A DNA stretch of 64,000 nucleotides from Acidimicrobiaceae bacterium (GTDB lineage Bacteria; Actinomycetota; Acidimicrobiia; Acidimicrobiales; Poriferisodalaceae). A program made the position numbers and the translations under genes. Of the stretch, positions 45,504-50,831 are shown piece by piece. The notes under the pieces were generated by a model. The model did not search any database, was not told where the DNA came from, and was given only the letters and a program-made list of their open reading frames with translations. Where the stretch lies: positions 248,001-312,000 of the forward strand of contig CAJJCB010000027.1 in the NCBI GenBank assembly GCA_905182565.1. Direction: 5' to 3'. Within the stretch, counting starts at the first letter, position 1; each line of letters opens with the position of its first letter.

Positions 45504-46280
45504 ATGGCAGATTCTTGTTTCGCTGAACGCGACGGACATATTTATACCATCACGATTAATCGACCTGAACGAATGAATGCACTTCATCCGCCAGCTAGCG
45601 CGGAAATGGCTGAACTCTTTGATGAGTTCCAAAATGACCCAGAACTGTGGGTAGCAATTGTTACTGGCGCAGGTGATCGAGCATTTAGTGCGGGTAATGA
45701 TCTGAGATATCAGGCTGAAGGTGGAGACAGATCTGCCAGCCCGGAGTCTGGTTTCGGCGGGATTACAGCACGATGGGACCTTGACAAACCGGTAATTGCT
45801 GCGGTCAATGGCGTTGCAATGGGCGGCGGATTCGAAATAGCGCTGGCTTGCGACATGATCATTGCAAGCGAGAATGCTCTGATGGCGCTTCCGGAACCCA
45901 AAGTAGGTTTGGCTGCACTAGCTGCTGGAGTTCATAGACTTCCTAGACAGATTGGTCTTAAAAGAGCGATGGGGATGATGCTCACCGGAAGACACGTTCC
46001 TGCAAAAGAAGGTTATGAACTAGGTTTCGTAACGGAGGTTGTACCTCAAGGAGAAGCACTTACTGGGGCGAAACGTTGGGCTGAAATGATTCTCGAATGT
46101 TCCCCTATGTCCATTCGTGCTACCAAACAAGCTGCTATGCAAGGACTAAATGTAGCCGGCGTGCGCAGTGCTCACGAAGGTAAATATGATGCGGTCAAGG
46201 CAATGACCAAAAGTGATGACTACGTTGAAGGACCAGTAGCCTTTGCGGAAAAACGTGCCCCGCTCTGGAAAGGCCGTTGA
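45504..46280 (+). CDS. Enoyl-CoA hydratase/isomerase family protein
   Basis: Crotonase fold. The first oxyanion-hole segment is AFSAGNDLRYQAEG (about 60-73) and the second is NGVAMGGGFEIALACDMIIA (about 98-117), with catalytic Glu candidates in MALPEPKVGLAAL. FVTEVVP and the C-terminal FAEKRAPLWKGR are typical. Length 258 is standard. The substrate may be an enoyl-CoA from fatty-acid or amino-acid degradation. It opens a short run with the cupin and rhodanese genes; the stop is 43 bases before the cupin start. Confidence 0.9.
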   Translation: MADSCFAERDGHIYTITINRPERMNALHPPASAEMAELFDEFQNDPELWVAIVTGAGDRAFSAGNDLRYQAEGGDRSASPESGFGGITARWDLDKPVIAAVNGVAMGGGFEIALACDMIIASENALMALPEPKVGLAALAAGVHRLPRQIGLKRAMGMMLTGRHVPAKEGYELGFVTEVVPQGEALTGAKRWAEMILECSPMSIRATKQAAMQGLNVAGVRSAHEGKYDAVKAMTKSDDYVEGPVAFAEKRAPLWKGR

Positions 46281-46323
46281 GTTGAGCTTGTCCTTGCGAA
46301 GGGCCGTTGTTGTTAGAGAAGCG

Positions 46324-46854
46324 ATGGCAGATATTCGAGTGATAGAAAGCACTGGTGTTGATCGAGTTGCTGTGGATGGGATTCGTAACCGTCTTATTGC
46401 GTTAGCGGCAGACAAAGAGTTGTTCCCAAGAAGTGATTTTCCTGTGCCTCAGAGCAATATAGGGGGGCAACTTTATTTGCTTTCCCAAGATAGTGATGGG
46501 CGATTTGCTCTCTATGTGCAAGTAGTCGCTGGTGCTAATTCTACGCCCGCTCATGACCATACGACCTGGGCGGTGATAGTGGGTTTAGAAGGTCAGGAAC
46601 TAAACCGTGTATATGACGGACATGCGGAGAAAGGGAAACCAGAAGTGGTGAGCGAATATGTAGTTGAGCATGGTACCGGGATAGCTTTTCTTCCAGAAGA
46701 TGTTCATTCGATTCACATTGAAGATGGCTCACTGAATTTTCACTGCTATGGCTTAGATCTGAATGCTCTAAGTGAGCGTCAATATTGGAGCGAAGATTCT
46801 AATGAATGGAAATATTTTAAAAACAAGTTTGACATCATAGACGCGAGAACATGA
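46324..46854 (+). CDS. Cysteine dioxygenase-like cupin protein
   Basis: Cupin of the type-I cysteine dioxygenase group. The iron-binding first motif is PAHDHTTWAVIVGLEGQE with H77 and H79, and the second motif is LPEDVHSIHIED with H128. It may oxidise a thiol such as cysteine or 3-mercaptopropionate; which one cannot be read here. The frame is open to 46243 over the preceding gene, and ATG 46324 is preferred (176 residues). It overlaps the multi-rhodanese gene by four bases (ATGA), which supports a shared role in sulfur metabolism. Confidence 0.82.
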   Translation: MADIRVIESTGVDRVAVDGIRNRLIALAADKELFPRSDFPVPQSNIGGQLYLLSQDSDGRFALYVQVVAGANSTPAHDHTTWAVIVGLEGQELNRVYDGHAEKGKPEVVSEYVVEHGTGIAFLPEDVHSIHIEDGSLNFHCYGLDLNALSERQYWSEDSNEWKYFKNKFDIIDART

Positions 46855-48389
46855 TTTCGGTAGATGAACTTATTGCTGCTATTTCCGATAAAGATGAGTT
46901 GGCTTTATTAGACGTTCGAGAACAAGGAACATATAGCAATAATCATATTCTGTGGGCCGCTAATCTGCCAAGGTCGACCGCCGAGCTGCGTGTCGGTAAA
47001 TTGGTACCTCGGTTGTCGACTCGAATCGTATTGGTCGATGAAGATTTGGCACTAGCGGACGACGTCAAAATCGTCCTTGAACAAATCGGTTATAGCAATG
47101 TAAATGTTCTCGAAGGTGGAGTTGCGGCGTGGTTAGATCACGGCGAAGAGGTTTATTCCGGTGTGAATGTGCCATCGAAACTTTTCGGAGAACTTGTAGA
47201 AAGTCGCTATTCCACTCCGCATGTTTCTGCGCACGAGTTGCAAAACTGGATTGACTCTGACAAAAAATTAGTGATTCTCGATTCCAGAACCAATCGTGAA
47301 TATAAAATTATGAACATACCAACGGGTCGTTCCTGTCCGGGTGGTGAGCTCGTGTATCGAATCTTTGATGTTGTCGATGATGATACGACCATCGTTGTTA
47401 ACTGCGCTGGGAGGACCCGAAGCATAATGGGTGCTCAGTCGCTCATAAATGCAGGTATCACAAACGAAATTTTTGCACTGGAAAATGGGACCATGGGATG
47501 GGAACTCGCAGGTCTTGGTCTGGAACATGGATCTTCTGAATCAGTGGAGGTACCAACGGAGAAGGGCCAGGCGCAAGCGAGTGAGGCTGCAGAAAGAGTG
47601 CGTCGTAAGTTCAACATTGAGTATGTTAGCGAAGAGCTTTTGAGGCAATGGGTTGGAGATCATGCTCACACTACGTACTTATTAGACGTTCGAAGTTCTG
47701 AAGAGTATTCCGAAGCACACTTGAACGGCTTTAGATCGGCGCCCGGTGGTCAATTGGTTCAGGCCACTGACGAATACATGGCAACTCTCGGAGCAAAAGT
47801 GGTGCTAGCAGATGATGATTACACCCGAGCGACAATGTCGGCCTCCTGGTTGAAACAGATGGGCTGGGATGTGTTTATTTATGAACATGGAGCGCTGGCT
47901 CGTGAACTAGTCACTGGCCTAGACGAAATTGAGTTAAAAGTCCCGGTAGTTCCCATGACATCAAGTATTGGAAACTCTCTAATTATTGATTTATCAACAA
48001 GCGCTGAGTTTCGGCGTGGTCACATACCCGGAGCGATCTGGAGTGTGCGTGGACGATTATCAAAATTAGCTCAACGACATAGTGAGCCCAACCCTAAATC
48101 GATTATTTTAACTGCTAAAAATCAAATGATTTCAGCCTTGGCATATACAGAAGCTGAAAAGGCATGGCCTGATGCAGAGGTAAGAGTTTTAAACCAGTGG
48201 CATGGAGAAGAGGAGCGAGGTCTAGATACCGATGAAGTGATCGATGATCTTTGGATACTGCCATACGACCCAGTTGATGCTGAAGTAGCGCGAGAGGCAA
48301 TGATTGGCTATCTCGTCTGGGAAGTAGACCTAGTAGGTCAATACGAAAGAGATGCCTTAGCCAACTATGAGCTTCGAAGCGCTGTCTGA
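46851..48389 (+). CDS. Four-domain rhodanese-like protein
   Basis: Four rhodanese folds in tandem, each with an LLDVRE-type or LDSRT-type strand-loop: about 1-105 (ALLDVREQGTY), 118-225 (LVILDSRTNREY), 250-355 (YLLDVRSSEEY) and 365-455 (LIIDLSTSAEF), with a further acidic C-terminal tail. Only domain 2 keeps an active-site cysteine, C185 in VVNCAGRTRS. The equivalent positions read VDEDLA (1), ADDDYT (3) and TAKNQM (4). The active domain could carry a persulfide while the others act as scaffold or binding domains. It overlaps the cysteine-dioxygenase-like gene and ends convergent with an LLM oxidoreductase one base away. Confidence 0.88.
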   Translation: MISVDELIAAISDKDELALLDVREQGTYSNNHILWAANLPRSTAELRVGKLVPRLSTRIVLVDEDLALADDVKIVLEQIGYSNVNVLEGGVAAWLDHGEEVYSGVNVPSKLFGELVESRYSTPHVSAHELQNWIDSDKKLVILDSRTNREYKIMNIPTGRSCPGGELVYRIFDVVDDDTTIVVNCAGRTRSIMGAQSLINAGITNEIFALENGTMGWELAGLGLEHGSSESVEVPTEKGQAQASEAAERVRRKFNIEYVSEELLRQWVGDHAHTTYLLDVRSSEEYSEAHLNGFRSAPGGQLVQATDEYMATLGAKVVLADDDYTRATMSASWLKQMGWDVFIYEHGALARELVTGLDEIELKVPVVPMTSSIGNSLIIDLSTSAEFRRGHIPGAIWSVRGRLSKLAQRHSEPNPKSIILTAKNQMISALAYTEAEKAWPDAEVRVLNQWHGEEERGLDTDEVIDDLWILPYDPVDAEVAREAMIGYLVWEVDLVGQYERDALANYELRSAV

Positions 48390-48390
48390 C

Positions 48391-49263
48391 TTACAGATCT
48401 CCATATTGAGCAATTACATCACCAAATTTGAGTGCATCATCAGGGCTGTTTATAAGAGCGGTTAAACCTGATGCATTTGTGACTGGCACCACGAGGCGGT
48501 CCACTCCACGTGCAGCCATTTTGGGGATATCTTTTGGATCGTCTGGCATGGGCATAGTTATTTCAATCAAATCGGGGTCACGTCCGTGTTCCTCAGCTGT
48601 GCGAAATGCTAAATCGATTCGCTCTTGCGGTGTATCTCTTGCTGGGAAATATCCATCTCCGAGACGACCAGCACGACGGGCTGCAAAATCTGTGTCTCCA
48701 CCGATGATTATAGGCACGGTTCCGTTGACTGGCTGAGGGCGGCAGTAGCAAGAATCAAAATTAACAAACTCACCATGGAAGGTAGGGGTGTCCGCTCCCC
48801 ACAGTTCCCTCATAGCGGCCACGTATTCATCAGTTCGAGCGCCCCGACGTTCAAAGGGAACTCCGATGGCATCGAATTCCTCGCGTAACCATCCGACACC
48901 AATGCCCAGAAGAATTCTCCCACCAGACATGTAGTCCAGCGTTGCTATTTGCTTTGCAGCGACAACCGGGTTGTGTTGTGGCAGAATTAAAATAGCAGTG
49001 CCTAGCTTGATAGTGGTGCTGACTGCAGCCATGTGAGCCATCCAAATTAATGGATCTGGGAGTAATAAATCCGAGGCACCATCAGCTAATTTCCCACTTT
49101 CGTTGTATGGGTAAACTGAGTCGTAAGTTGCTGGCATGATTGTGTGTTCTATAGTCCATGCCGATTCAAAGCCTGCCTGTTCGCCGGCTTGGATCAACTC
49201 TGTAGCAAGCGAGGTATCTGAAGCGTATTGAGCAGTGTTGCAATAACGAAGTCCAAATTTCAT
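48391..49263 (-). CDS. LLM-class (F420-dependent type) oxidoreductase
   Basis: Luciferase-like TIM-barrel flavoprotein/F420 enzyme. KFGLRYCNTAQY begins the first strand, GTAILILPQHNPVVAAKQIATLD (about 92-114) and GRILLGIGVGWLREEF (about 120-135) are the family signatures, and PIIIGG (about 185) precedes the C-terminal part. Length 290 fits. Many actinobacterial members use F420 rather than FMN, but the cofactor is inferred. Substrate unknown. It converges on the rhodanese gene and diverges from menB. Confidence 0.88.
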   Translation of the reverse strand: MKFGLRYCNTAQYASDTSLATELIQAGEQAGFESAWTIEHTIMPATYDSVYPYNESGKLADGASDLLLPDPLIWMAHMAAVSTTIKLGTAILILPQHNPVVAAKQIATLDYMSGGRILLGIGVGWLREEFDAIGVPFERRGARTDEYVAAMRELWGADTPTFHGEFVNFDSCYCRPQPVNGTVPIIIGGDTDFAARRAGRLGDGYFPARDTPQERIDLAFRTAEEHGRDPDLIEITMPMPDDPKDIPKMAARGVDRLVVPVTNASGLTALINSPDDALKFGDVIAQYGDL

Positions 49264-49341
49264 AATTCCCCTGATAGTTCCCGATACCCACTCATCGCCA
49301 GTTAATCTACGCCAAGTTGAATCAGCTTAACTGGAGAACCT

Positions 49342-50256
49342 ATGTCTTATCTGCCGAATGTATCTGACATCTTTGATTCCTCGCAGTGGCGTGAAATAGA
49401 CGGTTTTGAATTTCGGGATATCACGTATCACAGAGCTATAGGACAAGGGACGGTGCGAATAGCTTTTGACCGCCCTGATATTCGTAATGCTTTCAGGCCG
49501 AACACAGTAGATGAACTTTATCGGGCTCTAGATCACGCCAGAATGTCGACAGATGTAGGAGTCGTGCTTCTAACAGGGAATGGGCCGTCTACCCGAGATG
49601 GAGGTTGGTCATTTTGTTCCGGCGGAGATCAAAGAATTCGTGGAAAAGATGGATACAAATATGCGGATGGTGAGACAAGCGACACTATTGATCCCAGTCA
49701 AGTAGGTCGGCTACATATTCTTGAATGCCAAAGGCTAATTCGCATGATGCCGAAAGTAGTGATTTGTGTGGTTCCCGGATGGGCAGCGGGAGGAGGGCAT
49801 AGCCTCCATGCCACAGCAGATTTGACGATAGCGAGCAGGGAACATGCTCGTTTCAAACAAACTGATACTGACGTTGCCAGTTTTGATGGAGGATTTGGAT
49901 CCGCCTACCTTGCGAAACAAATAGGGCAGAAAAAAGCTAGGGAAATCTTTTTTCTTGGTCGAACATATGACGCTGAACAAAGATTTATTATGGGCGACGT
50001 GAACGAGGTTGTTGATCACGAGCAATTAGAAAACGTTGCATTGGAATGGGCTGCAGAAATTAATTCAAAGTCGCCGACTGGGCAGAGAATGGCAAAATTT
50101 GCTCTTAATCTCACTGATGATGGAATGATTGGGCAGCAGGTTTTTGCGGGAGAAGCAACGCGTCTTGCATATGGCACAGAAGAGGCTACCGAAGGACGGG
50201 ATGCTTTTCTAGAGAAGAGAGAGCAAGATTTCAGTGCGTTTCCTTGGCATTTTTAA
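49342..50256 (+). CDS. menB: 1,4-Dihydroxy-2-naphthoyl-CoA synthase
   Basis: Crotonase-family ring-closing enzyme of menaquinone biosynthesis. WSFCSGGDQRIRGKDGYKY and VPGWAAGGGHSLHATADLTI are signature stretches of MenB and not of ordinary enoyl-CoA hydratases; TDTDVASFDGGFGSAYLA carries the catalytic Asp region. Length 304 is right for actinobacterial MenB. ATG 49342 follows GGAGAAC. It shows that menaquinone, the likely quinone of the complexes encoded upstream, is made here; the rest of the men pathway is not in this window. Confidence 0.95.
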   Translation: MSYLPNVSDIFDSSQWREIDGFEFRDITYHRAIGQGTVRIAFDRPDIRNAFRPNTVDELYRALDHARMSTDVGVVLLTGNGPSTRDGGWSFCSGGDQRIRGKDGYKYADGETSDTIDPSQVGRLHILECQRLIRMMPKVVICVVPGWAAGGGHSLHATADLTIASREHARFKQTDTDVASFDGGFGSAYLAKQIGQKKAREIFFLGRTYDAEQRFIMGDVNEVVDHEQLENVALEWAAEINSKSPTGQRMAKFALNLTDDGMIGQQVFAGEATRLAYGTEEATEGRDAFLEKREQDFSAFPWHF

Positions 50257-50282
50257 TCTTTTGAAGCTTTGGGAATGCGGAT

Positions 50283-50831
50283 CTAAGGAATTGGCTGTTC
50301 TGTAGATAATCGTTGCATGATTGTTACATCCAGCCAGCGACCAAACTTTCGCCCGACCTCGCGCTCAACACCAACCACCTGAAAACCGTGTTTTGAATGA
50401 AGCTGAATAGAAGATTCATTATTTCCAGTAATGCGGGCAAAAATACTATGAAATCCATGTTCGTTGGCAAGCACAACTAGCTCACGAAGGAGCAAATTAC
50501 CAACTCCTTTTCCTTGATGATCTGGATGTACATAGACTGAATTTTCAACACTTGTAGCATAAGCAGCTCTAGGTTTGTAAGCCGACAGACAAGCCCAGCC
50601 TAAAATTTTATCCTTGTTCTCAGCCACGATGCAGGGGTAGACACCTGATCTTTCCCGAAGCCAAAGTCGCTGTTCATCTAGGGTGCGGGCAACCAAATCG
50701 AAAGTAGCTACTCCTGTTTCAATCTCATGGTTATAGATATCAACTATGGGTAGCGCGTCGTTAATATCTGCGAGCCTCGTTTGCATTCTTCCAAAGGTAC
50801 TGCTGCGCGCTTGTGGTTCATGTGTATTCAT
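50283..50831 (-). CDS. GNAT-family N-acetyltransferase (phosphinothricin acetyltransferase-like)
   Basis: A single GNAT domain. Motif A reads VYVHPDHQGKGVGNLLLREL (about 112-131), preceded by the strand WACLSAY and followed by IFARITGNNESSIQLHSKHGFQ. The N-terminal RLADINDALPIVDIYNHEIETGVATF stretch starts the fold as in PAT/YncA-type enzymes that acetylate amino groups of small molecules. The substrate is unknown. The start could be ATG 50831 or the internal ATG at 50786, which begins closer to the fold. Confidence 0.85.
   Translation of the reverse strand: MNTHEPQARSSTFGRMQTRLADINDALPIVDIYNHEIETGVATFDLVARTLDEQRLWLRERSGVYPCIVAENKDKILGWACLSAYKPRAAYATSVENSVYVHPDHQGKGVGNLLLRELVVLANEHGFHSIFARITGNNESSIQLHSKHGFQVVGVEREVGRKFGRWLDVTIMQRLSTEQPIP

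Follow-up and report, generated by a model that had tools for sequence, protein, structure and literature searches.

The cupin and rhodanese genes

The DNA considered here, referred to as the window, is a stretch of 64,000 nucleotides of contig CAJJCB010000027.1 from an Acidimicrobiaceae bacterium. On its forward strand, a gene encoding a cupin, a probable thiol dioxygenase, is followed by a gene encoding a rhodanese with four tandem domains, the two reading frames sharing an ATGA stop/start sequence, as stated in an earlier note made from the sequence alone (Table 1). They form a genuine, conserved functional pair, of a kind already known; in the window, a single rhodanese site is of the active type and the fourth domain of the protein is degenerate. 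The nearest named contig is that of an uncultured Acidimicrobiales metagenome-assembled genome (L061, a sister species), the rhodanese of which is 87% identical to that of the window.

Table 1. Positions of the cupin, the rhodanese and associated features in the window.
Feature	Position	Strand	Basis or remark
Gene of the enoyl-CoA hydratase/crotonase family, probably heading the operon	45504..46280	+	Pfam ECH_1, E 1.4e-59
Probable N-terminal extension of the cupin	46282..46323	+	TTG codons kept in L061; 13-14 residues in six relatives
Cupin, probable thiol dioxygenase, 176 aa from ATG	46324..46854	+	8VNI match, model, conserved residues
Cupin Leu50	46471..46473	+	Column of 3MDO Gln62, MSDO Arg and, presumably, CDO Arg60; 8VNI and 3MDO alignments
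Cupin Arg152	46777..46779	+	Column of 3MDO Arg168 (carboxylate-binding); invariant in aligned relatives
ATGA stop/start overlap, cupin-rhodanese	46851..46854	+	Sequence
Four-domain rhodanese, 512 aa	46851..48389	+	1YT8, E 1.5e-104 over residues 6-503; PF00581, four stretches
Rhodanese domain 1, inactive-type, Asp63 at the Cys position	46860..47138	+	
Rhodanese domain 2, active-type loop CAGRTRS, Cys185 at 47403-47405	47226..47504	+	
Rhodanese domain 3, inactive-type, Asp321	47640..47891	+	
Rhodanese domain 4, degenerate, Ala422 at the Cys position	47970..48194	+	Gone in sister genera

Linkage and natural fusion of the two genes

The distribution of the pair was considered in two sets of loci, namely, the 30 best rhodanese loci of the order, including that of the window, and the best 80 of at least 575 relatives in named genomes, 12 of which are identical with 12 of the order-level loci. 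At all 30 order-level loci, a cupin gene is found upstream of the rhodanese gene, with no gene between them. Among the 80 named loci, the two genes are separate and adjacent in 34 and form one open frame in 15, while another type of cupin is encoded next door in eight and no recognised cupin is present in the flanking DNA examined for the remaining 23. The separate pairs show gaps of -1 to 250 bases, with the cupin frame being broken in one instance (L086). When lists of matches in 61 genomes, that of the host included, were compared by hand, the 35 genomes presenting a strong cupin match (E 4.2e-45 or better) were the same as those holding the rhodanese, detected with E below 1e-110 in 34 and as a fragment beside the cupin in G008. 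The 30 of 30 order-level loci, together with the 15 single-frame fusions, rule out that the two genes are chance neighbours. As such, the cupin and the rhodanese very likely work together, and their coupling is well supported. The functional link proposed in the earlier note is thus borne out by conserved adjacency and natural fusion, and linkage holds throughout the order-level survey, even though 23 of the 80 wider relatives are without a recognised cupin. The interpretation given in that note is supported in part; a dedicated route, persulfide as a substrate, and a scaffold role of the remaining domains would go beyond what linkage, fold, and residues indicate.

At the 15 fused loci, one of which is from Stella vacuolata (L066), the order is always cupin and then rhodanese. 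Fourteen of these belong to a single starred clade of Pseudomonadota (SH-aLRT 97), and it is on this clade that the claim of fusion rests; the fifteenth (L122) stands apart from the clade, beside a relative with separate overlapping genes, and could reflect an assembly error. Structure prediction for one fusion (L077) gave a mean pLDDT of 85.7 and a pTM of 0.85, with the rhodanese part matching 1YT8 (Z 56.6 over 521 residues) and the cupin part matching the mercaptosuccinate dioxygenase (MSDO) structure 8VNI (Z 27.6 over 191 residues). In the same tree, the window falls in a starred set of nine Acidimicrobiales rows, with 12 other Acidimicrobiales rows comprising a separate starred set; as the tree was obtained by a quick method, with 30 of its 85 inner branches drawn open, no donor or transfer is claimed. 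The notion that the pair is widely present in the phylum was rejected, since of 296 sampled genomes, only that of the host encodes the cupin at E 1e-15, indicating a patchy distribution. Viral spread was likewise not favoured, as one scan of viral contigs returned seven pattern matches and no relative.

The same rhodanese family is also paired with other cupins. In eight of the 80 loci (L073, L078, L083, L103, L105, L112, L127, and L138), the rhodanese is accompanied by a third type of cupin of approximately 180 residues carrying the motif PHDHGxSWA[IV]YGQ. This type was found by inspecting neighbouring frames, six of which served to build the model that identified the eight loci; the three members tested had no Pfam match above cut-off. 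It presents a metal-type His pattern without the His and Tyr of the SHY motif of thiol dioxygenases, and for this reason these cupins are not called dioxygenases. A search for the thiol dioxygenase His/Tyr pattern in the 31 loci without a match to the first cupin model returned nothing.

In a comparison of plasmids, in which six regions were opened among the 58 matches listed, the rhodanese gene directly follows a gene annotated as 'cysteine dioxygenase' in four regions (two Azospirillum records, Acinetobacter, and a Comamonadaceae plasmid). In the Caballeronia plasmid, metC, two rhodanese genes, and a gene for a TauE-type sulfite exporter come after an MSDO-like gene. The Variovorax plasmid carries an MSDO-like gene and metC, with a sulfurtransferase gene a few genes away. 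Genes for taurine or sulfonate transport, SsuD, or TauD were seen in three of the six regions and the TauE-type exporter in one. Because such unlike cupins are recurrently paired with one rhodanese family, and fused to it in one clade, a shared pathway is suggested, namely, one of thiol oxidation in which the rhodanese takes part.

Active sites of the rhodanese

Pfam delineated four rhodanese stretches in the 512-residue protein, and the protein is homologous over residues 6-503 to Pseudomonas aeruginosa 1YT8 (which we take to be PA2603), a 'thiosulfate sulfurtransferase' of four tandem domains. The earlier description of four tandem domains, of which only the second retains the active Cys, therefore stands. 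In domains 1-4, the catalytic column of the window protein is occupied by Asp63, Cys185, Asp321, and Ala422, respectively, such that domain 2 alone looks active. The residues assigned earlier to domains 1 (Asp/Glu) and 3 (Asp) agree with this alignment, while the Lys and Asn assigned to domain 4 prove to lie just after the residue at the catalytic position, Ala422.

Alignment of the 80 related loci upheld these assignments. The domain 2 Cys, in the sequence CAGRTRS, is found in all 80, whereas the domain 1 column contains Asp in 76, Gly in three, and Glu in one, and the domain 3 column contains Asp in 78 and Cys in two. The domain 4 column was scored as Ser in 67, Ala in ten, Gly in two, and Cys in one, although seven of the rows lack domain 4 and the Ser scored in those seven is an accident of alignment. 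By contrast, domain 4 offers a Cys in 1YT8 and in five of the six plasmid-region rhodaneses, the sixth having Asp. Judging from these residues, there would be two candidate sites in the 1YT8 branch and a single one in the branch to which the window protein belongs.

Domain 4 appears to have gone further in relatives of the host. In 29 of the 34 full-length rhodaneses of the window's family, the match ends after domain 3 and resumes in the C-terminal tail (by hand count, part of these proteins having also been aligned). Frames of approximately 390-470 residues that have lost domain 4 and kept the tail are found in L006, L010, L012, and other family relatives, as well as in L074, L084, L087, L089, L095, L120, and L134. 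Since it has been deleted in sister genera, domain 4 is dispensable, and the four-domain form of the window, with Ala422, may represent a step towards its loss. Both the missing domain 4 Cys, which sets this rhodanese apart from relatives linked to cysteine dioxygenase (CDO) or 3-mercaptopropionate dioxygenase (3MDO), and the loss of the entire domain in sister genera look new.

Fold and predicted pocket of the cupin

The best solved relative of the cupin is MSDO (8VNI; E 2.8e-24), with 3MDO lying behind (E 5.9e-7). The AlphaFold model of the cupin (pLDDT 93.0) superimposes on 8VNI with Z 22.7 (1.9 A over 168 residues, 33% identity), on 3MDO-type entries with Z 19.2-20.0, and on mammalian CDO with Z of approximately 17. 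The protein thus adopts, in the model, the CDO-like cupin fold of small-molecule thiol dioxygenases, in agreement with what the earlier note had read from the sequence. All 32 separate relatives compared, two incomplete rows having been dropped, and all 15 fused ones retain the predicted metal ligands His77, His79, and His128. The SHY motif exists in variant form, with His140 and Tyr142 kept and Ser replaced by Asn138; such an Asn occurs in 4% of the thiol dioxygenase group and is called functionally equivalent (PMC10966181).

The customary label CDO_I (PF05995) is a narrow model rather than a functional criterion. The cupin did not match it at E 1, nor did a search of its own genome return any match, and naming the protein via Pfam or NCBIfam was abandoned, with no match above cut-off in either and only sub-threshold ones in Pfam. 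Below the CDO_I cut-off of 23 bits are also the MSDO-like genes of Variovorax (18.6 bits) and Caballeronia (14.1 bits) and, just short of it, the Acinetobacter gene (20.1 bits), leaving three of the four plasmid-region genes annotated as 'cysteine dioxygenase' above it.

Thiol dioxygenases divide into Arg-type and Gln-type enzymes according to one column, with Gln marking 3MDO, in which Arg168 holds the substrate carboxylate (PMC8050391). At this column, the window cupin has Leu50, hence neither the Arg of MSDO (8VNI) nor the Gln of 3MDO (the Gln62/63 column). Among 32 separate relatives (the incomplete rows L072 and L086 being dropped), the residue is Leu in 22, Val in four, Met in two, Ile in two, Ser in one (L134), and Arg in one (L117), and among the 15 fused relatives it is Ile in ten, Leu in three, and Val in two. 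At the same time, Arg152 aligns with 3MDO Arg168, and Arg is found there in all 33 separate rows with letters at this position (one of the 34 rows being gapped), in 15 of 15 fused rows, and in six of six seed rows of the third cupin type. This equivalence is from sequence alignment, and because 8VNI also has Arg at the position, the residue does not distinguish 3MDO. Since Arg152 is retained and the Arg/Gln column is aliphatic, the substrate would be a monocarboxylic thiol with an apolar flank, presumably neither cysteine nor mercaptosuccinate, and appears to be new. The combination of Leu50, which is neither Arg-type nor Gln-type, with Arg152 at the 3MDO Arg168 column also looks new.

These residues bear on two other readings of the pair. 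The first, which we consider improbable, casts the cupin as a mercaptosuccinate dioxygenase, with mercaptosuccinate being broken down by the pair. MSDO is indeed the closest solved structure, and msdo of Advenella and Variovorax shares its cluster with a rhodanese gene (PMC5373536), as does an MSDO-like gene of Caballeronia. Yet identity to MSDO is only 33%, and the MSDO Arg, which may bind the second carboxylate, is replaced by Leu50, with Leu, Val, Met, or Ile present in 30 of the 32 separate relatives and Arg in only one, so that one of the two likely carboxylate contacts would be missing. Moreover, metC, which lies between the two genes in Advenella and Caballeronia, does not do so in the window.

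In the second, the rhodanese acts first, with Cys185 charging a carrier thiol with sulfane sulfur and the persulfide so formed then being oxidized by the cupin, making the pair a cupin counterpart of persulfide dioxygenase-rhodanese fusions. Cupin and rhodanese do occur on one chain, fusions of a metallo-beta-lactamase-fold protein and a rhodanese are known, one being in Rhodococcus (PMC5157978), and the window cupin has an aliphatic residue where the pocket of CDO has Arg. The metal-binding and carboxylate-binding residues, however, resemble those of small-thiol dioxygenases. In Pseudomonas protegens, where 3mdo and tst apparently form one transcription unit, deletion of 3mdo raised the level of 3-mercaptopropionic acid (3-MPA), whereas deletion of tst had no significant effect (PMC12947264). 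Although the cupin there belongs to a different subfamily, this also argues against the rhodanese acting first, an order of events that we regard as unlikely.

A probable three-gene operon

The ATG of the cupin gene (46324) corresponds to ATT in the sister species L061, where the in-frame TTG codons at 46282, 46288, and 46294 are all retained, and in six relatives (L074, L084, L087, L089, L095, and L120), the cupin has 13-14 extra residues ahead of this point. Because the ATG is not kept and these relatives are longer at the N-terminus, the true start is probably a TTG, best that at 46282, 14 codons upstream, with 46288 and 46294 being further candidates. The TTG at 46282 lies directly behind the stop codon (46280) of the gene encoding an enoyl-CoA hydratase/crotonase family protein. 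A frame of the crotonase cluster is also found immediately upstream of the cupin in L061 and in the same six relatives, so that a three-gene crotonase-cupin-rhodanese operon is likely in the window and in these seven; none was seen in L134. Across positions 45504-50831 of the window, the crotonase, cupin, and rhodanese genes are followed by genes for an F420-type luciferase-like oxidoreductase (opposite strand), menB, and an acetyltransferase (opposite strand), a gene order that is repeated in seven named relatives.

Sulfur metabolism of the host

In the host genome (G000; 95.6% complete), searches for PF01077 (sulfite reductase), PF00174 (sulfite-oxidase fold), PF01507, and PF01747 all came out negative, whereas they were positive in 11, 9, 14, and 5, respectively, of 14 control genomes. 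Matches for sulfite reductase, PAPS-reductase/CysD-type enzymes, and ATP-sulfurylase are all lacking, and the host family may be unable to use sulfate. With neither PF01077 nor PF00174 being matched, sulfite would need another outlet: sulfite released from a thiol would be trapped, exported, or otherwise oxidized, and capping by a rhodanese to give thiosulfate would suit such a cell. With sulfite reduction apparently closed to the host, a supply of sulfite from the pair to cysteine synthesis is unlikely.

When 60 genomes from the order were compared, three of the 39 with the pair and 18 of the 21 without it had a PF01077 match (Fisher p 1.5e-9, the rows being kin). By family, a sulfite reductase match is absent from 35 of the 37 genomes of the host family (f1) and present in 15 of 15 from other families, while eight further genomes from outside the family, four bearing the pair and four relatives without it, were picked by hand. 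Outside the family, three of four pair-bearing genomes are without PF01077 and 18 of 19 pair-less genomes have it. These counts include incomplete genomes, such as G107, which is without the reductase and 80% complete, and pair status was assigned by the rhodanese alone in G037 and by absence of the rhodanese alone in G108, G142, and G143. An association within Acidimicrobiales between the pair and a lack of sulfite reductase looks new, although it is confounded by kinship. Should it survive a kinship-free test, it would tie the pair to the ecology of bacteria dependent on reduced sulfur.

Proposed function of the pair

Building on the computed adjacency, fusions, fold, and residues, thiol dioxygenation followed by handling of the released sulfur by the rhodanese is the most likely mechanism, with sulfite probably being converted to thiosulfate. 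The cupin would be a mononuclear non-heme-iron enzyme, with iron as the presumed metal, binding a small thiol with a single carboxylate through Arg152, much as 3MDO Arg168 holds 3-mercaptopropionate, and using O2 to convert the thiol to the sulfinate. The latter would be desulfinated to sulfite, either spontaneously or after activation. In the second step, Cys185 of the rhodanese, as a persulfide, would hand its sulfane sulfur to sulfite, yielding thiosulfate, with domains 1, 3, and 4 possibly serving structural or docking roles. A role after the dioxygenase fits the lack of a significant effect of tst deletion on 3-MPA in P. protegens. We give about an even chance to the proposal that the two genes, and probably the crotonase gene as a third, act as one such functional unit, taking a thiol via the sulfinate to sulfite that the rhodanese caps as thiosulfate.

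Several points weigh against this proposal. The lack of a significant effect of tst deletion is equally expected had the rhodanese no part in the route. Sulfite is one of several possible acceptors, the sulfane sulfur would have to come from a further source in the host, and no published assay of the window cupin or rhodanese was found. In addition, the sulfite outlets considered were PF01077 and PF00174, and sulfite might also leave through other sulfite-oxidizing enzymes or exporters. The link to a missing sulfite reductase is confounded by kinship, given that 35 of the 39 pair-bearing genomes are from one family and that the two pair-less genomes of that family (G003 and G011) are also without PF01077. 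Finally, as the 23 loci without a recognised cupin in the DNA examined show, the rhodanese can stand without an adjacent cupin. Of 22 genomes of this class that were searched, the cupin model finds a match elsewhere in 17 (seven at E 2e-16 or better, the rest weaker) and none in five; in one of the seven (L118), the locus ends 105 bases upstream, and the strong match lies at a contig end. In several cupin-less loci (L108, L111, L126, L137, L140, and others), the rhodanese gene is followed by one for a ComF-like double-zinc-ribbon phosphoribosyltransferase (Pfam having been run on L108 only).

The cupin-less loci and the tst deletion also speak for a further alternative, namely, that the rhodanese is a general supplier of sulfane sulfur, for instance for molybdenum cofactor, tRNA, or Fe-S synthesis, merely co-expressed with the cupin as part of an organosulfur regulon. 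A Variovorax rhodanese has been discussed as aiding cofactor synthesis for a sulfite-oxidizing molybdoenzyme (PMC5373536). The host is, however, without a match to PF00174, the one family of sulfite-oxidizing molybdoenzymes searched for, and both fusion to a dioxygenase and pairing with unlike cupins argue for a shared flow of substrate. A role in general supply thus seems to us rather doubtful.

A broader version of thiol dioxygenation coupled to thiosulfate formation is offered only tentatively. It posits an 'aliphatic-type' class of thiol dioxygenases, defined by an aliphatic residue (Leu, Ile, Val) or Met at the Arg/Gln column, an Arg aligned with Arg168 of 3MDO, and replacement of the SHY Ser by Asn or His. 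Together with a one-site tandem rhodanese, sometimes on the same chain, such an enzyme would convert the sulfur of monocarboxylic thiols to thiosulfate. In this actinobacterial family, the pair might then serve as the sulfite outlet of cells without sulfate/sulfite reduction that live on reduced organic sulfur. Whichever thiol is used, the residue pattern of the cupin predicts a substrate class, and the pair offers a way to approach the acceptor that a rhodanese uses in vivo, something rarely known.

Comparison with known systems

ETHE1-type persulfide dioxygenase-rhodanese fusions resemble the window pair in joining an oxygenase to a rhodanese, and the two could in principle act alike. The dioxygenase of these fusions is, however, of the metallo-beta-lactamase fold, whereas that of the window is a cupin. 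Among the open-access papers listed, considered mostly at the level of titles and abstracts, none was seen to assay a rhodanese as partner of a cupin thiol dioxygenase.

Dioxygenase-rhodanese pairs of the present kind are nonetheless partly in print. In Advenella mimigardefordensis and Variovorax paradoxus B4, msdo is clustered with a rhodanese gene (PMC5373536). These clusters are like the window in that MSDO is the nearest solved relative of its cupin and a rhodanese gene is at hand, and unlike it in containing metC and in the Arg and His of MSDO, as compared with Leu50 and Asn138 of the window cupin. In the 3mdo-tst pair of Pseudomonas (PA2602/PA2603; c14110-c14100 in P. protegens CHA0), as in the window, a thiol dioxygenase gene is followed by a rhodanese gene (PMC12947264). 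The cupin of that pair is a 3MDO, with only weak similarity to the window cupin, while the rhodanese 1YT8 has Cys in domains 2 and 4, as opposed to domain 2 only in the protein encoded in the window.

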